Assembly: GCF_000153105.1 (NCBI RefSeq)
Contig: NZ_CH672377.1
Coordinates: forward strand, 1,706,405 to 1,770,404
From: Blastopirellula marina DSM 3645
GTDB lineage: Bacteria > Planctomycetota > Planctomycetia > Pirellulales > Pirellulaceae
Length of the DNA stretch: 64,000 bases
Direction: 5' to 3'
A model generated the notes under the pieces. It had not been told where the DNA came from. It made no database searches and saw nothing but the letters and a program-made list of their open reading frames with translations. Both the position numbers and the translations under genes were made by a program. Positions 2,223-12,035 of this stretch are shown piece after piece (position 1 is the first letter of the stretch; the number at the start of each line of letters is the position of its first letter).

Positions 2223-3455
2223 GTGCGACGAGCAGTGATCACCGGCCTGGGGACGGTCAATCCCCTGGCGAACAATGTTGCGGATACCTGGACGGGACTT
2301 TGCAACGGCCAGTCTGGCGTCAATCAGATAACGCAATTTGACGCGAGTCCTTTTCGAACGCAAATCGCGGGGGAACTAAAAAACTTTGAACCTGACCAAC
2401 TGTTTGGTTCGAAACAGGCGCGGCGACTCGATCGCTATTCGCAGTTCGCGTTGGCCGCCGCGATGGAAGCGATCGACGATTCGAACCTGGAGCTTGAGTC
2501 GGAAGACCCCTTTCGAGTCGGCGTCATTCTGGGCACCGGCATCGGCGGCATGCGCACCTTTGAGGAGGAATGCGAAAAGTATCAGCAAAAAGGCCCCGAT
2601 CGAATCAGCCCGTTTCTGATTCCCCGCATGATGCCCAACGGCGCGACGGCCGCGATCTCTATCCACTTCGGCCTGCGCGGACCAACTTTCAGCGTCTCTT
2701 CGGCCTGTGCGTCGGCTGCCGACGCGATCGCGATGGCTCGCGATATTATTCTGGCCGGCCGCGGAGACGCGATTATCACCGGCGGCGCCGAAGCGGCGAT
2801 TACTCCACTTGGACTGGGAGGCTTCTGCGCCGCGCGGTCGCTGTCAGAACGCAATGACGCGCCGCAAATCGCGAGTCGCCCGTTTGATCAAAATCGTGAT
2901 GGGTTTGTTTTGGGGGAAGGGGCCGGAGTCATCGTCGTCGAAGAATACGAACACGCGCGCCGCCGCGGCGCCAACATCTATTGCGAAATCACCGGCTGCG
3001 GCCAGGCATCCGACGCGCATCACATTACGGCCCCTGACCCGCATGGCGCCGGTGCGATAAACGCGATGCGGCTGGCCATCGCCGACGCAGGCCGCAATGT
3101 CGACGAGATCGACTATATCAACGCGCATGCGACCAGTACGCACTTAGGAGACCTAGCCGAAGCCAATGCGATCTGCCAGGTCTTTGGCTCGCACATCGAC
3201 AAACTTGCGGTCAGCTGCACCAAAAGCATGATCGGACATCTATGCGGCGGAAGCGGCGGAGTCGCGACGATCGCCGCGGCTCTCTCGATCCGTCACGGCA
3301 CAATCCATCCGACGATCAACTGCGACGACCTCGATCCCGAAGTCAAGCTCGACATTACGCCCAACACGGCGCGTGAAATCGGCGTCAGAAACGCCATGCT
3401 GAACAACTTCGGCTTCGGCGGCCACAACTCGTCGCTCGTACTCTCGAAGATCTAG
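2223..3455 (+). CDS. fabF: 3-oxoacyl-ACP synthase II (FabF type)
   Basis: A 410-residue condensing enzyme that extends acyl-ACP by two carbons using malonyl-ACP in fatty acid synthesis. The thiolase-fold catalytic triad is visible: Cys162 in SVSSACASAADAI, His302 in NAHATSTHLGD and His339 in KSMIGHLCGG, with Lys334 ahead of it and the C-terminal NNFGFGGHN. Length is normal for FabF. It starts with GTG at 2223, with AAGGA seven bases upstream. No acpP, fabG or fabD lies next to it, so it may be an additional KAS II rather than the housekeeping copy. Its 3' end borders the accessory block; the stop codon is intact. Confidence 0.9.
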   Translation: MRRAVITGLGTVNPLANNVADTWTGLCNGQSGVNQITQFDASPFRTQIAGELKNFEPDQLFGSKQARRLDRYSQFALAAAMEAIDDSNLELESEDPFRVGVILGTGIGGMRTFEEECEKYQQKGPDRISPFLIPRMMPNGATAAISIHFGLRGPTFSVSSACASAADAIAMARDIILAGRGDAIITGGAEAAITPLGLGGFCAARSLSERNDAPQIASRPFDQNRDGFVLGEGAGVIVVEEYEHARRRGANIYCEITGCGQASDAHHITAPDPHGAGAINAMRLAIADAGRNVDEIDYINAHATSTHLGDLAEANAICQVFGSHIDKLAVSCTKSMIGHLCGGSGGVATIAAALSIRHGTIHPTINCDDLDPEVKLDITPNTAREIGVRNAMLNNFGFGGHNSSLVLSKI

Positions 3456-3486
3456 CGTTTGCAACTTCGGCTTTGATTTTCCGATC

Positions 3487-3770
3487 GGCTACCAAAGTCC
3501 TCGCAAACAAGAAATCCTTGGTCGAGATTCGGAATGCCATCACTCGAAAATGAAATATCGCGATGGCGAAGCGGTGATTCAAGTCGTGCAAAGTAATGAC
3601 GGAGACGATCAGGGCTTGGGAGATCTGATGCGGCAAACAAACCGAGACGAATTCGAATAGGCCCGGCACCTAACGAGGCATCCATGGAGTTCTGAAGTAT
3701 CTCTCGAACCAAAGCATCGGTTCCAGCATATTCGCCCTCTTCCGCCTGTTCAGTTTTGAAAAGCTGATTT
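3487..3770 (-). pseudogene. N-terminal stump of a GHKL/HSP90-like ATPase
   Basis: On the minus strand, a run of about 95 codons reads QLFKTEQAEEGEYAGTDA, then LVREILQNSMDA (the Bergerat/GHKL N-box with its E-x3-N), and ends at GFLVCEDFGSR, where a full-length protein would continue with the glycine-rich ATP lid. On the right the reading runs into integrase DNA with no convincing start codon; on the left it stops just inside the fabF end. N-box proteins with this spacing occur in bacterial defence-type operons next to Z1-domain helicases (family knowledge). Here only the N-terminus survives, so it cannot work. It marks the left edge of the accessory block. Confidence 0.55.
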
Positions 3771-3799
3771 TCGTTTGGGTTCCGAAGGTGCGAATTGCA

Positions 3800-4984
3800 A
3801 TGCCTTCGGGGCGACCCTTCCAAATCCGATACACCGACCCGACCAATAATCGGGAAGTGCGGATCTCGGTTGGAAGTCGAGATATCGAGGAAGCGGAACG
3901 GTTGAAGGTAGAGACCGAAGCTCGGCTAGTGCTGGGGATCAACGTCCAGTCAACTGGCCAACTGGCCGCTGGGCCGGAAATGGATTGGGATAGTTTTCGC
4001 GAACAATATCGCGTGCTCCATCTAGCGACGGTTCGTGACAAGACAGCGATGGCGGCAGAAAGCCGACTGGACATCGCGGAACGAATCCTGAAGCCAAAGT
4101 GCCTGGGCGATATAGCCGATTCCTCAGCGTTGCAAAACCTCCAAGTTCGCCTACTAGCGGGCGATTGCAGTGCCCGAAAAAGGCCTCGCTCTCCCCATAC
4201 TGTCAAAGGCTACATGGCGGCAATCCTGGCAACTCTCAACTGGGCACATCTTCAAGGCTGGCTGCCTAACGCTCCGAAAATCCGCCTGATCAAAACTTCC
4301 AAGAACACTTCGATGAAAGGACGCCCGATTACCGAAACGGAATACAAGGCGATGCTGAAGGCGACTCCCAAGGTTGTTGGAGATGAAGCGGCCGAATCTT
4401 GGCTCTATGTTTTGCGTGCACTGTGGGAATCAGCATTGCGACTGGAGGAATTGATGCATGTCTCCTGGAATAAACCTGGCACAATTCGGCCGGTCTGGGA
4501 GACTGGAAAACATCCCATTCTGGACATCCCCGCATCGATGCAAAAGAACGACACGGATCAAACGATCCCACTTCTCCCAGGCTTTGAAGCATTGCTGCTG
4601 AAAACGCCTGAAGCGAATCGAACTGGTTGGGCGTTTAATCCAGAATCACTTCAGCTGCGACTCGGCCGAAAGGTGAAGCACCAACGTCCCGACGCCGAAT
4701 GGGTTGGAAAAGTTATCAGCCGCATCGGGAAAGAAGCCAACATCATTGTGGCGGATGCTGACAAGAAGACTGGTCGACCGGTGAAATACGCCTCGGCTCA
4801 TGATCTGCGACGCAGTTGCGGTAACCGCTTGAGAAACGCCGGAGTTCCACCCCTGGTTATTTCTCGCGTGATGCGGCATGCATCCTGGGAAACGACGCGG
4901 AAGCATTATGCACCTGGGGATGTGCAGAAGGATGCCGAAATACTCAGAAACGGAAAACACCTCGACGATAGTCTACCCAAATAA
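3800..4984 (+). CDS. Tyrosine recombinase / phage-type integrase
   Basis: A ~394-residue site-specific recombinase. It has an N-terminal arm-binding-like segment, then a SAM-like core-binding region (residues ~70-170). The catalytic domain shows Arg in ESALRLEEL, HDLRRSCGNRL (H-x-x-R), the second His in VMRHASWETTRKHY, and the nucleophile Tyr at its end. All key residues are present. ATG 3800 is preferred over GTG 3788 because the purine-rich GAAGG lies 12 bases upstream of the ATG. The last ~18 residues differ from those of the nearly identical partial copy at 5757-6262, so its 3' end has been exchanged or extended. A convergent cargo gene follows directly. Confidence 0.85.
   Translation: MPSGRPFQIRYTDPTNNREVRISVGSRDIEEAERLKVETEARLVLGINVQSTGQLAAGPEMDWDSFREQYRVLHLATVRDKTAMAAESRLDIAERILKPKCLGDIADSSALQNLQVRLLAGDCSARKRPRSPHTVKGYMAAILATLNWAHLQGWLPNAPKIRLIKTSKNTSMKGRPITETEYKAMLKATPKVVGDEAAESWLYVLRALWESALRLEELMHVSWNKPGTIRPVWETGKHPILDIPASMQKNDTDQTIPLLPGFEALLLKTPEANRTGWAFNPESLQLRLGRKVKHQRPDAEWVGKVISRIGKEANIIVADADKKTGRPVKYASAHDLRRSCGNRLRNAGVPPLVISRVMRHASWETTRKHYAPGDVQKDAEILRNGKHLDDSLPK
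4461..4935 (+). repeat. Integrase 3'-end direct repeat, copy 1
   Basis: About 475 bases inside the intact integrase are repeated at 5757-6231 in the same orientation with a constant offset of 1296 bases and no gaps. I count about 25 mismatches by eye, of which only two change an amino acid (Val/Ile and Asn/Lys). Similarity begins abruptly at tctcctgg and fades after the DVQKDA codons. Confidence 0.9.
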
Positions 4985-5757
4985 TCACCGTTGGCCTGAA
5001 GGGGGCACCAACGGCTCAAGACATGAAACGCGGAGGGCGGCATCCAAAGCAACAGCCTTGATTCCAAATTGAATTTCCAATTGCAAGAGGACCGGAATTT
5101 CGCGGCTCTCTACTTGAGGTAAATCGTCCGAGCTCTCGACTTCCTGAAGCAGCACTTGGCACTCCTCTAAGAAGCGATCTATCACCGAAATCTTGATTGC
5201 TGGATCGCGAGGTTTTAGCAATTCGTATGTGGCTGCCAGGTCCAAGACAAGAATGTCCTTTTCCAGTTCACGAAACCCAAATACTGGCGTTCCATCGACA
5301 GTGGTAAGATAGCCGTGGCCTTTTTGACTCGGCTCAAACTCATCGTGAAAATTGCCGCTTTCGGACAACAAGTCTGCCCACCGCAGTTCGAATGGGATGA
5401 AAACGGCAGATGGCGTTTTCCCCCGCTGGCGAAGCTCCTTCAAAGCTCTCTGAACAACCGGTCGCAATTCTTCCTCGGATTGACAACTCTCGAACGTTTC
5501 AAGTCCATCGAAAATCAGCTCAAGTAAAAAAACATTTCCCTCGGCACGGATCGGTTGAATAATTCCTTCAACGAAATTAAACGCTTGCTGACCGCCAGAT
5601 ATAAATCTCTCCCTCGGACATTTGAACTCCACAAGCCGATTTACCGTTTCACCATCCTGTTCATTTCTCACTTCACTTTGCTTCAAAATATCAATGCCCC
5701 AGTGCTGTCCCAGCCATGAATCATTGAGCTCTCTCTCAAGTTCATCAACAATTTGCT
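4985..5757 (-). pseudogene. 5'-truncated cargo gene, function unknown
   Basis: A minus-strand frame of roughly 257 codons (from EQIVDELERELNDSWLG to VPPSGQR) with ordinary protein composition: acidic, with EFKCPRERF, VFLLELIFDGLETF, FELRWADLL and a C-terminal helical stretch. I recognise no family. Upstream of 5757 the frame continues only into the antisense of an integrase fragment, and there is no in-frame ATG early in the unique part, so the native start is lost at the 5757 junction. The stop at 4985-4987 abuts the convergent integrase stop. It appears to be the cargo of the module led by the intact integrase. Confidence 0.5.
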
Positions 5758-6231
5758 CTCCTGGAATAAACCTGGCACAATTCGGCCGATCTGGGAGACT
5801 GGAAAACATCCCATTCTGGACATCCCCGCATCGATGCAAAAGAACGACACGGATCAAACGATCCCACTTCTCCCAGGCTTTGAAGCATTGCTGCTGAAAA
5901 CGCCTGAAGCGAATCGAACTGGCTGGGCGTTCAACCCAGAATCACTTCAGCTCCGGCTCGGCCGAAAGGTGAAGCACCAACGTCCCGACGCCGAATGGGT
6001 TGGAAAAGTTATCAGCCGCATTGGGAAAGAAGCCAAGATCATTGTCGCAGATGCTGACAAGAAGACTGGTCGACCGGTGAAATACGCTTCGGCACATGAT
6101 CTACGACGCAGCTGTGGTAACCGACTTAGAAACGCTGGAGTTCCACCCCTGGTCATCTCTCGCGTCATGCGGCATGCATCCTGGGAGACGACGCGGAAGC
6201 ACTATGCACCTGGGGATGTGCAGAAGGACGC
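5757..6231 (+). repeat. Integrase 3'-end direct repeat, copy 2
   Basis: Second copy of the ~475-base integrase segment found at 4461-4935. The first ~190 bases have a single mismatch; the remainder carries mostly third-position changes, the pattern left by purifying selection on two separate integrase genes. Confidence 0.9.
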
Positions 6232-6262
6232 TCAAAAGCTAATTGATCACTTGTTGCAGTGA
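5757..6262 (+). pseudogene. 3' fragment of a second tyrosine recombinase
   Basis: The catalytic half of an integrase without its N-terminal domains: about 167 codons matching residues ~225 to the end of the intact copy, including HDLRRSCGNRL and MRHASWETTRKHY, and ending KDAQKLIDHLLQ. The first catalytic Arg region (ALRLEEL) is missing because the junction at 5757 lies just downstream of its equivalent. The fragment therefore cannot form an active site. Its natural-looking C-terminus suggests it is the undisturbed end of this integrase family, while the intact gene has an altered tail. Confidence 0.75.
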
Positions 6263-6308
6263 GTCGCAAAGATAGGCCAAACGCTTTTGCTTGCACGATG
6301 AACTCTGA

Positions 6309-7556
6309 CTAACTAGTCGCTTCGGAGTCATCAGTCATACCGTCACGAATCCGCTGAGTGACGGACCTGTTGATGATCGCCAAGATTGTTTCATTTGCAC
6401 CTACGATTTTGAATCGCCTCTCAAATTCTTGCGAGCTACAAATCAAGATCAGCTTTCCGACCAATTCGTCGGCAAACGATGACGCGATAACCGAAAGGCC
6501 GCTAAAGTCAATCTGGATCAAGGAGTTTGATTCGTTTTTGATATTGAGCAACTCATTTCGCAACAAAACGCCGGATTTTCTTGTGCCGCTACCAGATGGC
6601 TGGTCAGACACTCGGTAAATAATGTTGTTGAAATCGTCTTCCAAGTTTTCAATTCTTTGATTTATCGGTTGGTAGCCGCCAAGTGCGTCAACTATTGAAA
6701 CTTCCTTATCGAAGTCAATTTGAAAATCGACTGTAGTGCAATTGTTTGAATAGCTTGGAAATGGCACTTGGAGCGATGTGTTCAACTCTGTATTTCGCCT
6801 GCCAACGAAACCAGGCCCACTTGTGATGTTTAGAAACCCTGAATTCGACATGACGATATTCTGAAGCCCCCACATCCCATTCCCCTGTCCGATGTTCTTG
6901 TCGCGAGTGACCCCTTCTTGGACAGCGAGTTTTATGGCTTCGACAGCATTTGACGGTTGATGCACCGTAGCCTTTAGTGAGTTGTAGAGTCCTCGTCCAT
7001 GGTCAAAAATGCACAACGCTATATGCTGGGAACTCGGGTGTATCTGTCCCATCGCATATCCATGGGTCGCAAGTGAATGCTGAAGGATGTTGTCCATCAC
7101 TTCGTTGAGGCACCATTCCAAGCCCTGGAGCACACCGATTTTGCATTCCACTGCCCTCGCAACGTCAGTGATATAGGCATTTACCAGCTGATTGATTTCG
7201 TTGGGTGTGGCAAATTTCCAAACGACATTCATGGGGGTCAGCGAATCGCCTAAATCCAATCCTGCAATAGCTGGATTAAATATGCACGTTCGACCCAAGA
7301 AATCAGGAGAATCTAGAATCTCAAACGATAGTTGCTCCTCGGAACGGTACATTTCAAGCAGGCCGGCGACTGGAGCCACAACATTGGGATACGCACCTTG
7401 GATCGCAGCAAAATCCAGCAAGAAATGTGTAATTCCCGATTGACGACCATGGAAAATTGCTCGAATAAAATTCGCTACGACGAATGGCGAACTTAACGAC
7501 TGGAAACGCAAGACATTTTCATCTCGAACAACTCTATAGTCTGCTTCGTTGGGCAT
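6309..7556 (-). CDS. GHKL ATPase with C-terminal STAS-like DUF4325 domain
   Basis: A 415-residue soluble protein. Residues ~120-260 carry a GHKL ATP-binding fold: N-box LEWCLNEVMDNILQHS, G1-like IFDHGRGLYNSL and G2-like GQGNGMWGLQNIV. The C-terminal ~110 residues (from VSIVDALGG to the end, with LIQIDFSGLSVIASSFADEL) resemble the STAS-like DUF4325 domain. The combination recalls anti-sigma-factor kinase/anti-anti-sigma switch pieces fused in one chain, so a signalling or stress-switch role is plausible but unproven. It is the intact cargo gene convergent with the second, broken integrase, 46 bases away. The start is ATG 7556 with a weak ribosome site. AT content is higher than in the core genes, consistent with transfer. 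Confidence 0.7.
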   Translation of the reverse strand: MPNEADYRVVRDENVLRFQSLSSPFVVANFIRAIFHGRQSGITHFLLDFAAIQGAYPNVVAPVAGLLEMYRSEEQLSFEILDSPDFLGRTCIFNPAIAGLDLGDSLTPMNVVWKFATPNEINQLVNAYITDVARAVECKIGVLQGLEWCLNEVMDNILQHSLATHGYAMGQIHPSSQHIALCIFDHGRGLYNSLKATVHQPSNAVEAIKLAVQEGVTRDKNIGQGNGMWGLQNIVMSNSGFLNITSGPGFVGRRNTELNTSLQVPFPSYSNNCTTVDFQIDFDKEVSIVDALGGYQPINQRIENLEDDFNNIIYRVSDQPSGSGTRKSGVLLRNELLNIKNESNSLIQIDFSGLSVIASSFADELVGKLILICSSQEFERRFKIVGANETILAIINRSVTQRIRDGMTDDSEATS

Positions 7557-7643
7557 ATTGACTCTCTGGGCGTAAATGAGAGAGCGGCAGTGCCGTCATT
7601 ATCGCAATTATTCAAAGACTCATTATGGAGATCGAGCCATGTA

Positions 7644-7662
7644 CCTGGGTACACCTCCCAGG
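7644..7662 (-). other. Stem-loop downstream of tRNA-Arg
   Basis: CCTGGG and CCCAGG form a 6-bp stem with a 7-base loop, 21 bases beyond the 3' end of the tRNA gene. There is no T-run, so it is at best a processing or weak termination structure. Confidence 0.3.
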
Positions 7663-7682
7663 CCAAATCGACGTAAGTCTAA

Positions 7683-7755
7683 TGCCCCCGGGTGGAATCG
7701 AACCACCGACACGCGGTTTAGGAAACCGCTGCTCTATCCACTGAGCTACGAGGAC
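7683..7755 (-). tRNA. tRNA-Arg (anticodon CCT)
   Basis: A complete 73-base cloverleaf on the minus strand. The acceptor arm GTCCTCG pairs with CGGGGGC with two G-U pairs and discriminator A; D-arm GCTC/GAGC; anticodon stem GCGGT/ACCGC with loop TTCCTAA (anticodon CCT, reading AGG); T-arm GGTGG TTCGATT CCACC. CCA is not encoded. It is the intact attachment site of the island to its right: its 5' half (7718-7755) is repeated at 11892-11929. The DNA immediately upstream of its 5' end is therefore island sequence, and its promoter must be element-supplied (inference). Confidence 0.95.
7718..7755. repeat. att direct repeat, left copy (within intact tRNA-Arg)
   Basis: Identical to 11892-11929 except for C at 7741 versus T at 11915. 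The repeat ends exactly at the tRNA 5' end (7755) on one side and inside the anticodon loop (7718) on the other, so strand exchange most likely took place in the anticodon stem-loop. Confidence 0.85.
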
Positions 7756-7828
7756 GTGTGCAAAAAAGCCTTGTTTTTCGGTGTTTTCGAACTAGCTTTA
7801 GGTGGTCACTTTAGCGACTACACCCGAA

Positions 7829-8830
7829 ATGCCAAAATCTACACCCAAAAAGATAGCATCCATCCAGAAACCACGGAAGCCGCATCCCGACTTCCCGCTC
7901 TGGGCTCATCCGTCTGGTCAGTGGTGTAAGAAGGTGAACGGCAAGTTCCACTACTTCGGCACCTGGATCGACCCACAAGCGGCCCTAGATCGCTGGCTTG
8001 ACCAGAAGGATGACATCTTAGCAGGGCGTGAGGTTCGACAGGGGGCTGGGCTGAAGGTCCGGGACTTGGTCAACGCATTTCTCAACAGCAAAACCCGGCT
8101 AGTCGAATCCGAGGAGCTGGCGAAGCGGACCTGGGAATCCTACGACCGACGCATGGGAACCGTGCTGGAGTCGCTCGGAAAGGGACGACACGTTGAGACG
8201 CTGCGCCCGATCGACTTCGAGAAGTTGAGGGCCATCTTCGCCAAGGACCATGGGCCGGTCACGTTGACGGGTGATATCACCATCGTGCGGTCGCTTTTCA
8301 AGTATGCCTACGAATCGGATTTGATTGCAAAGCCGATCAAGTTTGGCCCCAACTTCAAGCCGCCATCTCGCGCGACGTTGCGTAAGAACCGACAGGAGAG
8401 AGGCAAGAAGCTATTCGATGCCCCACAGATTCGAGCCATGATCGCCGGAGCCGGCTCGCAGCTCAGAGCAATGATTTACCTGGGTATCAATTGCGGCTTC
8501 GGGAACAACGACTGCTGCAAGCTCCCATTAGCCGCTGTGCAGCTTGACAAGGGTTGGCTTGAATTCGGACGCCCGAAGACAGGGATAGAGCGACGTTGCC
8601 CGCTATGGCCCGAAACGGTGGAAGCGCTGCGGGCTGTTCTGGCCAAACGACCAGAGCACGAAACCGACAGGGTGTTTATCACGAAGTACGGCAACACCTG
8701 GGAGCCGAAGTCGACGACCGATAACCCGATCTCAAACGAAGCATCCAAGCTGCTGAAGACGTTGAAAATCCATCGCAAGGGGCTGGGCTTCTACCCTCAA
8801 GCAACTAAAGGGATTGAAGGAACCCGTTAA
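7829..8830 (+). pseudogene. Island integrase, C-terminally truncated tyrosine recombinase
   Basis: About 333 codons of a planctomycete-type phage integrase: basic N-terminus (MPKSTPKKIASIQKPRKPHP), arm-binding motif GQWCKKVNGKFHYFGTW, core-binding region ~85-190, and the start of the catalytic domain. After HRKGLGFY, where the family continues into the H-x-x-R, H and Tyr motifs, the reading switches to PQATKGIEGTR and stops. The essential C-terminal residues are missing and, in the first catalytic motif, the usual arginine region reads INCGFGNNDCC. ATG 7829 is preferred over the upstream start at 7802 because the family begins with this short basic leader. It faces away from the tRNA, as is usual for an island integrase. 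Confidence 0.75.
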
Positions 8831-9029
8831 GGTCAAAAACGCTGGCGAGAACGGATCAAAGATCCGTGATGCTCTGAAGAAGCTCGGCCTGAAGGATGTC
8901 AGCGGGAAAAACCAAATGCCTGGGGCAGAATTCAAGTTGAAAGTGACTGAGGACACAATCGAAAAGCTTGAGAAGCTAAAAGGTAAAACCTTTAGTGTGG
9001 ATGGCGAAGGTAAAGTGAAGCTCAAGTAA
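8790..9029 (+). pseudogene. 3' fragment of an unknown lysine-rich gene
   Basis: From about 8790, in a different frame from the integrase, the reading LKGLKEPVKVKNAGENGSK continues through KLGLKDVSGKNQMPGAEFK to VKLK and a TAA at 9027-9029. It is rich in Lys, Gly and Val and looks like the C-terminal ~75 residues of a protein. A TTG at 8814 could serve as a start for a 71-residue peptide, but no ATG and no clear ribosome site exist. The simplest reading is that a deletion joined the integrase 5' part to the 3' end of another gene near 8790. Confidence 0.4.
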
Positions 9030-9053
9030 CTGCCGATCATTGTTGGCCAAACT

Positions 9054-9085
9054 AATAGCTCCAGGTTTTCCTGGGGCTATTTTCG
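9054..9085. terminator. Bidirectional intrinsic terminator
   Basis: AATAGCTCCAGG / CCTGGGGCTATT form a 12-bp stem (one G-U pair) around a TTTT loop at 9054-9081, with A/T-rich flanks on both sides. It lies between the + strand fragment ending at 9029 and the minus-strand operon ending at 9147 and can serve both. Confidence 0.8.
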
Positions 9086-9146
9086 CTTCTTGATCTGGAT
9101 ACAGTTTGAGCCGCTGAGAGATATATTTAAATCAGATGCGTCAGAT

Positions 9147-9977
9147 TCAATGCCGTGGTAAGTCTTCAGAATCAGGATCACGAAGACTGAGGTAGTCAAA
9201 GTCCCAGCGTTTCAGCAACCTCAAGTCTGAAAGGGTGATTTCCGCCTCTGGTTTTAGGCAGGCAATCTCGACCGTGACCCCTTCGCAACCACTTAAACGC
9301 GACTCTACTTGGTCAACAAGCAATTGAGCTGCCTTACGACTGCTTGACGACGCATATTCATCATCATGCATCACGGCATAAACGATAATTTTATATGTTT
9401 CGTCTTCCTCAAGCTCATCATCCACAACGACCATGTAAATGCCTTCTATTAAATGGCCGCTCTTCTTGAAAGACTGGCGAAGCCTTATCGCTGCGTCTCT
9501 TGTTCGATCGTTAAATGCATCGGGAAAGGCGGCACGAACATATCGCTTTGACAGCCAGTGTGAAATTGCCCGAAGAAATCTCTCACTTGGCTGTCTTGAA
9601 TCATCAGGTAAGCAATCAAGAAGAATTTGCCTTGAGAGAACGAGCCGGTCGTGGACGCATATGTCAAAGAACGTCTGCTCGCCACCGTCAATTTTCACAT
9701 CAAACTGAAATTCTCGGGGACTTTTTCCCCAATGCTTGTTGCCATCACTCCCAGACATTCGCCGAGCTGGAACAATCTCAACATTTGGCTCGACTGAAAA
9801 GCGAGGATTCGTTACATCACAATCGTGACTCACCACTATCCAAAGTTCACAATCAGCTAGTCTCTCTGGAACGCAATTGCCATTGCGCAGACTTTCCACG
9901 AGCGAGTGTGGTAGCACACTTCCCTGCCGCCAGCCGTTGGCTTTTATAGGGCCTGCGTCATCCCTTACGGACGCCAT
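9147..9977 (-). CDS. Island cargo protein, unknown function (third gene of operon)
   Basis: A 276-residue soluble protein without signal peptide or membrane segment. I do not recognise the family. Notable are the N-terminal GWRQGSVLPHSLVESL, the segment LWIVVSHDCDVTNP, a central KRYVRAAFPDAFNDR and an acidic stretch VVVDDELEEDETYKI. The SHDCD cluster (Ser-His-Asp-Cys-Asp) near residue 50 is the best candidate for an active or metal site. It follows the HTH gene by six bases, and GGAG sits nine bases before its ATG inside the end of the HTH gene, so the two are translated from one message. Base composition is more AT-rich than the chromosomal genes. A terminator lies just downstream. Confidence 0.7.
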   Translation of the reverse strand: MASVRDDAGPIKANGWRQGSVLPHSLVESLRNGNCVPERLADCELWIVVSHDCDVTNPRFSVEPNVEIVPARRMSGSDGNKHWGKSPREFQFDVKIDGGEQTFFDICVHDRLVLSRQILLDCLPDDSRQPSERFLRAISHWLSKRYVRAAFPDAFNDRTRDAAIRLRQSFKKSGHLIEGIYMVVVDDELEEDETYKIIVYAVMHDDEYASSSSRKAAQLLVDQVESRLSGCEGVTVEIACLKPEAEITLSDLRLLKRWDFDYLSLRDPDSEDLPRH

Positions 9978-9983
9978 GACAAG

Positions 9984-10763
9984 CTACTCCATTGTGGATC
10001 GTTTTCCCGTCAGTGCATCAATGCTCGCCGACTGGTCTTTGACATTGTTCACGTCAATTCCCCGAGCCTCCGCCAACTCTCTCAAGCTCTTCGGTTTCTC
10101 GCGATCACGAGAGTTTACTCGGGTCGCAATTGATTGCAGCAAAGCATCGATTGCGATCTCATTCATAGAATCTCGCCTCATATAATCGATAACGGAATTA
10201 CCTTCATCGTCCACAAATTCCCTTAATGCTGCTCCGGCAGGAAGACGTGAAATCTTGCGCCACGCTTGTGAAATGCGATAGACTTGCATCAAGCGATCAT
10301 GATTGCTTTTGTGAGGGGTGGCATTGTCTTTGATCCATCCATAGACTGTTGGCCTCTCGACACCAACAACTTCGGCAAGTTCCTTAACCTGCAAGGCAAG
10401 GTTTGCCCTAATTTCTGAGATGATTTCCGGTATGCTGCTACTGCGTTCGGTATCTTGCCGTTGCGTGCATCCCATCGTTAAAGGTGAATTGCGACCAGAC
10501 ATCACTAGCGACACAATGCTTGTGCTAAAGCTTGTCCCGCTTGACTCTGTTCCGGGTACAAACCATCCCCTAAGTCGCTCATACTCGCTACTAACAGCAT
10601 CCGTCTCCACCAATGCATCTTGCGCCCAAAAGTAATTGCCGCAACAAACAATAGCCCCGGTAGGCGACAAATGCTCAGGCTCAGGGCTAGTGATCCCCGT
10701 GCCAGACGCCTCACGAAGGAGTTGTAAATACTTGTCGAAGATGTCATTTTCCGTTGCCGGCAC
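9984..10763 (-). CDS. HTH-domain protein (second gene of island operon)
   Basis: About 259 residues. Residues ~120-175 form an XRE-like helix-turn-helix: IISEIRANLALQVKELAEVV, then GVERPTVYGWIKDNATPHK. The N-terminal 110 residues are unlike known DNA-binding proteins, and the C-terminal part (VIDYMRRDSMNEIAIDALL) is helical. The start is GTG 10763, because AAGGAGG lies eight bases upstream and the GTG overlaps the stop of the preceding gene as TAGTG. A TTG 18 bases further upstream would bury the Shine-Dalgarno in the coding sequence. It may regulate its own operon or be an effector partner of the TIGR04255 protein; the sequence does not decide this. Confidence 0.75.
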   Translation of the reverse strand: MPATENDIFDKYLQLLREASGTGITSPEPEHLSPTGAIVCCGNYFWAQDALVETDAVSSEYERLRGWFVPGTESSGTSFSTSIVSLVMSGRNSPLTMGCTQRQDTERSSSIPEIISEIRANLALQVKELAEVVGVERPTVYGWIKDNATPHKSNHDRLMQVYRISQAWRKISRLPAGAALREFVDDEGNSVIDYMRRDSMNEIAIDALLQSIATRVNSRDREKPKSLRELAEARGIDVNNVKDQSASIDALTGKRSTME

Positions 10764-11548
10764 TAGGCACCTCCTTTCCAATGATTCAATGCTTCACGCG
10801 AAACGGAATGCTCGAATGCCGTTTCAAGAATATCGTGGAGCTTCCACAATTTACCGATGAGTATTTCATTATTTAGTTCGCACTCGCATTTTTCGATATG
10901 GTCAAAATCAAGCACACGAAAAAGCTCACCCTCTCCAGGCTTATTGTCGAAATCGAGGTGGGTTACTCCGATCTCAGGTGGAATAAATTTCTTGCCGTCG
11001 TGCTCGTAGGATTTTACCAGCAAGTGACCACATTCCGTTTCTGCGCGAATCAGAAACTCAAACCGACTTTTTGTGACGCCCAACTCTTCTGCCGACAGCC
11101 CTCGAATTGAAGTCTGCAAGCAATCATTCGCGAGAATTTCTTCTGTAGGGCGAATTACATTTACGTATCGAAGCCCAATCTGAACGGCCTCAGTGATATT
11201 TGCATAATTGGCAATCACATCAAGTGCCGCCGAAAATCTAGCTACAAACTCCTCGAAGTTCGTATAGCTCGAAACTTCATAGGTCACAAAATCCTTGGTT
11301 AAAATGATCGCCTCGCGACGCTTCCGACCGCCAAATATCCAACGAACATCGCTCTCGGCGATTGGCATTACCCCCAGCGTCAACTGCTGCATTTGTTCTT
11401 CGACGTATTTCGTGAACCCCATCCCTCGAAGCGTCTCTTGGATGTCCGGAACGTATTTAGACATCCTAAGAACAGGCGAAAAGCGGAGCTGGACGAGGGC
11501 GAGTGCAAGCGGGGCCTTGGCCAATTTAAGTTGCTCTCGTTTTCCCAT
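10763..11548 (-). CDS. TIGR04255-family protein (first gene of island operon)
   Basis: About 261 residues. The N-terminus KAPLALALVQLRFSPVLRM, followed by PDIQETLRGMGF, the central TYEVSSYTNFEEFVARF, and the later GLRYVNVIRP and ELLIGKLWKLHD-like end are typical of the sporadically distributed TIGR04255 family, whose function is not established. The start is ATG 11548, which has AAAGGA with nine bases of spacing; the longer frame up to 11632 lacks a ribosome site. It leads a three-gene operon with one-base (TAGTG) overlap to the HTH gene. TIGR04255 genes are patchily distributed and often on mobile DNA, as here, so a role in genome conflict is a reasonable guess only. Confidence 0.75.
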   Translation of the reverse strand: MGKREQLKLAKAPLALALVQLRFSPVLRMSKYVPDIQETLRGMGFTKYVEEQMQQLTLGVMPIAESDVRWIFGGRKRREAIILTKDFVTYEVSSYTNFEEFVARFSAALDVIANYANITEAVQIGLRYVNVIRPTEEILANDCLQTSIRGLSAEELGVTKSRFEFLIRAETECGHLLVKSYEHDGKKFIPPEIGVTHLDFDNKPGEGELFRVLDFDHIEKCECELNNEILIGKLWKLHDILETAFEHSVSREALNHWKGGA

Positions 11549-11891
11549 TGTGGGTAGTCCTTTATTGAGAAGGTTGGCTATGCAGTCATGCCCGTGTGAG
11601 ATAGCCAATCCACAAAACTTTACACTAAACATTACGCTCCATCGACGGCGGTTGTGCGAAAAATTTACACAAAATCTTACACGAAGCCCAATCTGTCCTG
11701 CTTAGGCGCATATGGAAAACAGGGCAGTCTGTGAGCTTCTTCGCCAATTTCGCCGGGTGTAGCTACACCCGCAAGCAAGGCTTTCCACTGCTGAGTAGGG
11801 CGAAGCTCGATTAGCCGGAATCGACGTAACCGCTTAGAAATAGAGATCTTGCGGCCACTCCTCGCAGCCTTCGCAGCCCCCTCAACTTCGA
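11549..11891. other. Island right end, no gene
   Basis: I see no protein-coding reading in these 340 bases. They hold the perfect 16-base palindrome GGGTGTAGCTACACCC at 11755-11770, made of two inverted copies of CTACACCC. The same octamer occurs at 7818-7825 and 7839-7846 at the other end of the island, beside or within the first codons of its integrase. Repeats placed like this are typical of integrase arm-type binding sites. The operon promoter is presumably in 11549-11700, but no convincing -35/-10 pair stands out. Confidence 0.5.
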
Positions 11892-11929
11892 TTAGGAAAC
11901 CGCTGCTCTATCCATTGAGCTACGAGGAC
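11892..11929 (-). pseudogene. Displaced 5' half of tRNA-Arg (right att copy)
   Basis: Minus-strand bases 11929 to 11892 repeat the tRNA-Arg sequence from G1 through the D-arm and 5' anticodon stem into the loop, then diverge. Immediately upstream (11937-11942, minus strand) is GATAAT, a plausible -10 element at the right distance, so the original tRNA promoter seems to have been left here facing a useless half-gene. The D-loop differs by one base from the element-borne half. Confidence 0.8.
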
Positions 11930-12035
11930 CAAGAATTATCTTGCCAGACCCGCAGGGCGCTGTGCGACAGGCGGATCTAGTATGGGTTCTATCGTAATGT
12001 TAGGGGGTAGTTCTAAAAAGAGGGAGCCAGGTTCG

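Follow-up and report, generated by a model that had tools for sequence, protein, structure and literature searches.

The 64,000-nucleotide stretch of Blastopirellula marina DSM 3645 analysed here (the window) contains what is best read as the right-hand debris of at least two tRNA-Arg-targeting integrative elements, which stacked at one tRNA gene and were then decayed by deletions; the probability of this reading is put at roughly 0.8. Two tyrosine integrase sequences, both matching PF00589, are each followed by a convergent minus-strand cargo gene (4985-5756 and 6309-7556), and the open reading frames and strands are as a preliminary description of this DNA had given them. Int1 (3779-4984, plus strand) includes a catalytic domain (PF00589 E 6.9e-12). 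Its ORF spans 3788-4984, with GTG at 3788 as the first start codon and none earlier in frame, so that the normal start and roughly 8-15 N-terminal residues are absent by comparison with relatives, which begin with M-A-K-(R/K) or similar and in which about 8-15 residues were counted by eye ahead of a conserved PKVR. Int2' (5757-6262, plus strand) is the C-terminal part of a second integrase. It has lost its first 224 residues and differs from Int1 in its last residues, and it shares 97% amino acid identity with Int1 residues 225-386 (162 residues, E 1.4e-106, far above chance). At least two related elements of one design thus lie in tandem, as had been proposed, and they share a single tRNA.

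The boundary between cargo1 and Int2' (5756/5757) is sharp and marks the start of a direct repeat (family D1), whose copies begin at 4461 and 5757 and run for 478 nt with 27 differences (94% identity). Across 160 codons these comprise 23 synonymous and four non-synonymous changes, two of the latter at the divergent tail. Deletion is the likeliest origin of this junction. The preliminary description had the junction truncate both flanking genes; for Int2' this is evident, whereas the loss of the cargo1 5' end is presumed, because no homologue was found for comparison. It had also explained this junction by one deletion between two adjacent elements. Such an event accounts for 5757 but leaves a second junction, at about 3719-3779, which broke both Int1 and cargo0, and decay therefore happened repeatedly. 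The copies in the window appear immobile. A different origin, homologous recombination between integrase genes in which an incoming copy with other cargo left a partial duplicate in place of two integrations and a deletion, would fit the presence of a single right-end arm (described below) and the uneven spread of differences in the overlap. One difference falls in its first 163 nt and 26 fall in the remaining 315, which would fit homogenisation close to the junction; the split was picked after seeing the data, and its scan statistic is reached in 45 of 5000 shuffles. The junction at 5757 is nevertheless not itself a homologous crossover, since Int2' is joined there to cargo1 DNA, and Int1 has a separate 5' truncation; we regard this origin as unlikely.

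Unrelated cargo stands beside the near-identical Int1 and Int2'. Cargo0 (3452-3777, minus strand, within an ORF at 3452-3823) is a fragment of an ATPase-type gene cut on both its fabF side and its Int1 side. The assignment comes from a weak match of its residues 36-80 to positions 32-79 of the 627 in the PDC-M33A model (E 8e-4); no match was found in Pfam and none in plasmids. A genome of the same genus (G003) matches the window only as far as 3455, and there fabF and the tRNA are separated by other genes over about 23.7 kb. Cargo1 (4985-5756, minus strand) has 256 residues left and no start codon at the 5756/5757 junction. It begins directly after the Int1 stop at 4984 (gap 0). Apart from itself, no homologue was found in 196 genomes, nor any in plasmids or viral contigs; its predicted structure was of no use (mean pLDDT 38), and the comparison with solved structures gave a single match at E 1. 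Cargo2 (6309-7556, minus strand) is a 415-aa ORF with an ATG start, separated by 46 nt from the Int2' stop at 6262. It contains a DUF4325 STAS-like domain (PF14213 E 1.3e-11) and a HATPase_c_2 match below the Pfam cut-off (PF13581 E 1e-4). Three plasmid records match cargo2 (best 30% identity over 87%), with none in viral contigs and nothing among solved structures.

Past cargo2 lies the target, a tRNA-Arg (CCT) gene predicted by ARAGORN (7683-7755, minus strand), whose 3' end faces the integrases and which is identical at 73 of 73 nt to its counterpart in G003. The tRNA gene at this end, the one next to the integrases, is the regenerated copy, and between it and cargo2 is a single copy of an arm (7640-7679) that is conserved in relatives between the integrase 3' end and the tRNA 3' end as TGTACCyrGGTACA plus GACGTAAGTC. 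In the window it consists of the palindrome TGTACCTGGGTACA (7640-7653), a putative arm site to which the integrase presumably binds, and the right-end motif GACGTAAGTC (7670-7679), 3 nt off the tRNA 3' end. A search of the window for the arm gave no element right end after cargo1. No displaced tRNA 3'-half fragment occurs in window positions 3400-7680, where not even a 10-mer is shared; the element borders therefore cannot be closed there, and with one arm and no tRNA fragment for its tandem members the region is classed as remnants and not as a complete element.

The same arrangement recurs in relatives. Rows were chosen from the integrase and joint-pattern searches to give 41 loci, a site listed under several locus ids being counted once as far as could be told; some of the contigs end close to the integrase. 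Left out were distant hits that were not refetched (L015-L018, L020-L032 and unlisted second hits), L003/L004, which represent a third integrase place in the window's own genome, and L148, L149 and L151, which were without a usable integrase. In 29 of the 41 loci the integrase gene points with its 3' end at that of a tRNA gene, which is tRNA-Arg in 23, and the palindrome or a hairpin form of it is present in 32 of the 41; the arm pattern was not found in the other nine. A joint search for the palindrome with ACGTAAGT found 13 of 392 genomes, against 0 for the reversed control among the matches listed, and 0 viral contigs had the arm pattern. This search was partly independent, nine of the 13 genomes being known already from integrase searches and four new (G293, G391, G429, G469).

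Four of 19 tRNA-Arg loci searched (L063, L068, L069, L071) have a displaced tRNA 3' half 2.8-10 kb upstream, 41-48 bp long and 95-100% identical; others were found at a tRNA-Leu (L087, 60 bp) and a tRNA-Asp (L133, 49 bp). The other 15 tRNA-Arg loci, many of which have little upstream DNA, gave no long fragment (none in 13, 15 bp in L070, 20 bp in L111). The parent elements are therefore islands at tRNA genes, about 3-10 kb in size. Units with both ends identified measure 2.8-10 kb and carry other genes, contrary to the earlier idea of a unit made of an integrase plus one gene. L068, with both att sites, has AAA_25 helicase-like and excisionase-like HTH genes among three ORFs scanned, and L063, also with both, a PDDEXK exonuclease among five; the criteria taken for a PICI-like satellite were an Stl/Rpr or AlpA regulator, a primase/rep module and often terS.

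A pocket gene had to be an ORF of at least 80 aa in the stretch from integrase stop to arm, here called the pocket. Among the 32 arm-bearing loci it holds one or more convergent genes in seven, a co-directional gene in one and is empty in 24. Cargo is therefore optional, and relatives in which no convergent cargo gene follows the integrase are what the preliminary description had itself named as contrary evidence. Its suggestion that the convergent neighbour would change from relative to relative was largely borne out, as the seven convergent pockets hold six different contents. Resemblance at E below 0.4 is confined to the pair L065/L073 and to L113 with its decayed relative L149. Pocket genes match ATPase-STAS, Trypco2, exo/endonuclease, trypsin-like and DUF6896-HEAT families, some below curated cut-offs. 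On the integrase tree, which has seven short rows and weak support for 13 of its 34 inner branches, pocket state requires a minimum of seven changes, a figure that is accordingly rough. Its sisters L065/L073 still have a pocket gene of which L066 keeps a trace, 44 nt that match the start region at 77%. Decay like that of the window is seen in G293 (L149), where the integrase is a C-terminal trace recognised by eye, the arm and tRNA are kept, and the pocket gene, of the L113 family, lacks its middle. In G489 (L152) the integrase is truncated at its 5' end and is accompanied by two convergent genes and the arm, with a pocket gene beginning 328 nt from the arm, unlike the closer genes elsewhere.

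The changing pocket gene and the tandem copies in the window would also suit a true cassette system, in which integrase plus convergent gene form a mobile unit that is captured and stacked at the tRNA. A roughly 1-kb unit in G002, which lies between two identical tRNA 3' halves and has one minus-strand ORF and no integrase, points the same way, but this unit is without the conserved arm. The empty pockets and the 2.8-10 kb between att repeats also count against such a system, as do the distances from integrase stop to cargo stop (-62 to +46 nt in seven pairs), which leave no room for a recombination site between the two genes. The small cassette system first proposed is on these grounds quite improbable. 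Integron-like capture was rejected for the same want of space, and neither the gaps nor a search for strict palindromes, which number at most one per locus, gave each cargo a site of its own. The module and its stacking are thus real and the proposal is partly supported, with cargo as an optional part.

That pocket genes are host or neighbouring-element genes merely adjoining the integrase is less credible still. Elements at tRNA genes often stack, and no left end was found within about 11-24 kb upstream of the filled-pocket loci L065, L067 and L113. However, the arm lies beyond the cargo and adjoins the tRNA, a position that makes neighbour DNA unlikely, and in separate lineages the cargo and integrase genes meet or overlap at their stops. 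In seven of eight filled pockets the gene lies on the same strand as the target tRNA (L152 keeps only a tRNA half). Read from the att side on this strand, it could be expressed mainly in the integrated state. It is possible, though on balance doubtful, that the pocket is a dedicated slot which takes one or two genes and is refilled time and again, the genes being expressed mainly while integrated and swapped between elements by recombination at the arm and at the conserved 3' end of the integrase. The idea that pocket genes are generally expressed by read-through from the tRNA promoter was dropped after a terminator scan. In 17 of 23 element loci a hairpin with a T-run followed the tRNA, although some of these hairpins were long and unconvincing, and none was found in the window, L148, L068, L070, L086 or L049; the scan discriminates poorly, being positive also at three of three same-genus control sites.

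Under the reading of stacked and decayed elements, these planctomycete integrative elements would insert at tRNA genes by means of a tyrosine integrase whose crossover falls in the anticodon loop, and each insertion would regenerate the tRNA 3' half and push the old half away. The integrase gene occupies the right end, its 3' end toward the tRNA and followed by the short arm, and the pocket may take up to two accessory genes, which with few exceptions converge on the integrase. The use of tRNA targets by the relatives, the arm, the pocket, the turnover of its cargo and the truncated genes are shown. At least two elements probably entered tRNA-Arg(CCT) successively, the newer adjoining the tRNA. 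Deletions would probably then have taken the left parts, the displaced tRNA fragments and the integrase 5' ends, leaving a row of right ends in the order cargo0, Int1-cargo1 and Int2'-cargo2-arm-tRNA. The cargo may be defence-like and under selection.

Parts of this scheme are known from other systems. The streptococcal ICESt1-related islands were reportedly the subject of Pavlovic et al. 2004, whose title speaks of accretion and deletion. Their likeness to the window, as far as that title goes, lies in tandem accretion and deletion, both of which are proposed here. The islands in tRNA and tmRNA genes collected by Islander, as far as the consulted portions of the paper describe them, include tandem arrays, have an anticodon-centred crossover in 2083 of 3919 cases, and share the tyrosine integrase and the regenerated tRNA with displaced fragment (PMC4383910). 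Each tandem member there needs a tDNA fragment and an integrase, whereas the fragments in the window are lost, and no word beginning with 'planctomyc' occurs in its main text (PMC4383910). The ssrA islands of Dehalococcoides likewise stand several in tandem at one RNA gene, with module and cargo of different histories, and some without an integration module are called possible cis-mobilizable elements; they differ in their ssrA target and in a recombinase set beside Ccr proteins in a figure legend, and the parts consulted describe no pocket between integrase and att (PMC3146451). The tmRNA-linked, defence-carrying elements I23, I44 and I55 of Pseudomonas, in the sections seen, resemble the present elements in that a tyrosine integrase sits at an RNA gene with variable cargo close by, direct repeats are present and genes for autonomous transfer are absent, but the cargo named for them lies between intY and a shared inner region and not between integrase and attachment site (PMC12595487). 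SaPI/PICI satellites also place accessory genes at preferred sites near the element ends, although these are the 3' end or the interval between int and stl, and no int-att pocket is stated in the text consulted (PMC6092414). Within the openly licensed PMC text covered, no description was found of a pocket of this kind or of such elements in planctomycetes.

A planctomycete mobile-element family is now defined by its integrase, target and arm sequence, and many members can therefore be found with one DNA pattern. The interval from integrase stop to arm provides a precise address for collecting unfamiliar accessory genes, and, if the idea of a refilled slot is true, planctomycetes would exchange defence-like genes at this place. 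The window also illustrates how elements of this kind decay, leaving cargo genes in a short row next to a tRNA.

Lower G+C at 5000-8000 and 9000-12000 of the window lies between a fabF-like gene (2223-3455), the left border of the element region, and a glyoxalase-like gene (from 12083), which opens the conserved block at the right border; both genes were identified by eye. The order from left to right is cargo0, an ATPase-type fragment (3452-3777, minus strand); Int1, a tyrosine integrase without a normal start (3779-4984, plus strand); cargo1 (4985-5756, minus strand); Int2', the C-terminal part of a second integrase (5757-6262, plus strand); cargo2 (6309-7556, minus strand); and a tRNA-Arg(CCT) gene on the minus strand (7683-7755). 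At 5757 Int2' starts abruptly, at a point equivalent to 4461 in Int1, and the two match from there onward. Since Int1 4461-4938 and Int2' 5757-6234 show 27 differences in 478 nt, most of them synonymous, the two are, judged by their sequences, diverged, once functional relatives rather than a fresh duplication. Their last residues are unlike, and the genes that follow them, cargo1 and cargo2, are unrelated to each other in sequence comparison. The differences are unevenly spread: only one falls within the first 163 overlapping nt, against 26 in the following 315. A recombination scenario for the tandem is a less likely alternative, kept because these first 163 nt are almost identical.

Relatives of the integrase were searched in four overlapping genome sets (196, 397, 396, and 392 genomes) and in GTDB contigs. 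Matches were found in 28 of 196 genomes at E 1e-40, the window's own among them, in 18 of 397 at E 1e-70, and in 11 of 396 and 3 of 392 at E 1e-80; the GTDB contigs yielded 19 loci. In these relatives the 3' end of the integrase points at the 3' end of a tRNA gene. Under one rule for all, a tRNA in facing orientation lies within 2.5 kb of the integrase at 29 of 41 loci, and is tRNA-Arg in 23 of those 29. An upstream repeat of the tRNA-Arg 3' half, extending to the anticodon loop, occurs in 4 of 19 tRNA-Arg loci searched and delimits elements of ~10.0 kb (L063, 44 bp), ~8.2 kb (L068, 48 bp), ~2.8 kb (L069, 41 bp), and ~9.5 kb (L071, 44 bp). Merely 20 and 15 bp are repeated in L111 and L070, and no displaced fragment was found in the other 13 within the upstream DNA searched. 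More distant relatives use tRNA-Leu (60-bp repeat) and tRNA-Asp (49-bp repeat). Element contents include a PDDEXK exonuclease gene (L063) and an AAA_25 gene with a resolvase and an excisionase-like HTH (L068). In a 36.8-kb contig of the IMG/VR viral collection (L130), an integrase of 70% identity lies close to the contig end, in the vicinity of DUF932 and PDDEXK genes, and contig C2 of the window's own genome holds a third, distant integrase place (L003/L004, about 30-35% identity).

When tRNA-adjacent DNA from 25 loci was set under each other, two conserved pieces appeared in nearly all: the palindrome TGTACCyrGGTACA or a hairpin form of it, followed by GACGTAAGTC near the tRNA. Distant members carry variants, and the second piece is not clear in L088 and L118. 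Of 41 loci, 32 carry the palindrome or hairpin form downstream of their integrase, and among loci of up to 20 kb none has more than one strict palindrome. The joint pattern of both pieces was searched in 392 genomes and occurs in 13, one copy each, nine already known through the integrase searches and four new; the control, the same pattern read backwards, gave none among the matches listed. It adjoins a tRNA in 10 of the 13 (the window and the sites of L063, L065, L086, L111, L113, L148, L149, L150, and L151); one of the remaining three is beside a tRNA 3' half (L152) and two are at a contig end. In the window it occurs once (7641-7678), and in none of 100 shuffles. This conserved right-end pattern, the arm, is taken as a putative integrase arm site. 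The left ends of L068, L071, L087, and L133 show, by eye, the core of the arm as an inverted hairpin, GGTACA...TGTACC, ~100-150 nt inward of the displaced tRNA fragment; this is a possible left arm. In L064, L065, L069, L071-L074, L111, L113, and L149 the arm lies within a compact hairpin, and on the tRNA strand a T-run comes next, as though a terminator for the tRNA arrived with the element; the hairpin/T-run scan gave weaker matches at all three control sites too.

The cargo position is the pocket between the integrase stop and the arm, where a gene was counted only if its ORF reached at least 80 aa. The preliminary description had likened the modules to a cassette system and named a convergent neighbor that differs every time as the supporting outcome. 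The neighbor does differ where one is present, but most loci have none: among 32 arm-bearing loci, seven pockets hold convergent genes, one a co-directional gene (L086), and 24 are empty. Contents are cargo2 in the window; one gene family in L065 and L073, frameshifted in the latter; a gene with a Trypco2 match below cut-off (L067); a 138-aa gene and an Exo_endo_phos gene (L070); DUF6896 plus a HEAT match that stays below cut-off (L113); and, in L152, a 144-aa gene together with one whose trypsin match is below cut-off. An all-against-all comparison found no kinship among pocket contents at E <0.4, except L065/L073 and L113/L149. The stops of convergent pairs are separated by -62 to +46 nt (seven pairs), and the first possible start of the pocket gene is 1-85 nt from the palindrome in six of seven loci (328 nt in L152). 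On the integrase tree (27 rows labeled, many weak branches) filled and empty pockets require at least seven changes of state. Loss is suggested in L066, where 44 nt still match (77%) the region in which the gene of its sisters L065 and L073 starts. Cargo2 is STAS-like, with an additional ATPase match. The L071 element encodes at its left end a protein that matches HATPase and STAS, each time below cut-off. A PADLOC match of cargo2 to DrmA (E 2.3e-27) covers only 118-394 of a 1750-position model, and assignment to DISARM was rejected. We infer that pocket genes act in defense.

Each new element would enter beside the tRNA, and if so Int2'-cargo2 would be the younger and Int1-cargo1 the older, with cargo0 possibly from a third. 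The DNA between cargo1 and Int2' should then include the left part of element 2 along with an arm and a tRNA fragment; the latter two were looked for there and are missing. Int2' is incomplete, cargo1 seemingly so too, and the single deletion at their junction posited in the preliminary description explains this most simply. A like loss is seen in Int1 and cargo0 at ~3719-3779, and comparable decay occurs elsewhere, with the L152 integrase starting near residue 202 and L149 keeping only an integrase tail. In the same-genus genome G003, ~23.7 kb occupied by other genes separate the matching left flank (88% identity) from the tRNA, which is 100% identical. This counterpart (C1 5711854-5735520; L085, L060) includes a 4606-codon open frame.

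A different element seems to have used the 5' side of this tRNA-Arg for its entry (7718-11929). The tRNA 5' half recurs there as a 38-bp repeat, at 7718-7755 and 11892-11929 (97%), and in G003 the counterpart of the right flank, from 11892 on, runs on from the tRNA itself. The element has an integrase ORF (7802-8830), its C-terminal catalytic end seemingly missing, and three minus-strand genes, one of them TIGR04255 (10763-11632). In G002, which represents another species of the genus, half copies flank this tRNA on both sides (L061; 11851-12928, 14257-14296): on the 3'-half side is a ~1 kb unit with one minus-strand ORF and no integrase match, and the 5'-half copy lies on the opposite side of the tRNA.

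The integrase/cargo array is real and beyond chance. The process at the window tRNA is ordinary accretion and decay at a tRNA gene, and the elements form a family with an unusual, well-defined gene pocket.
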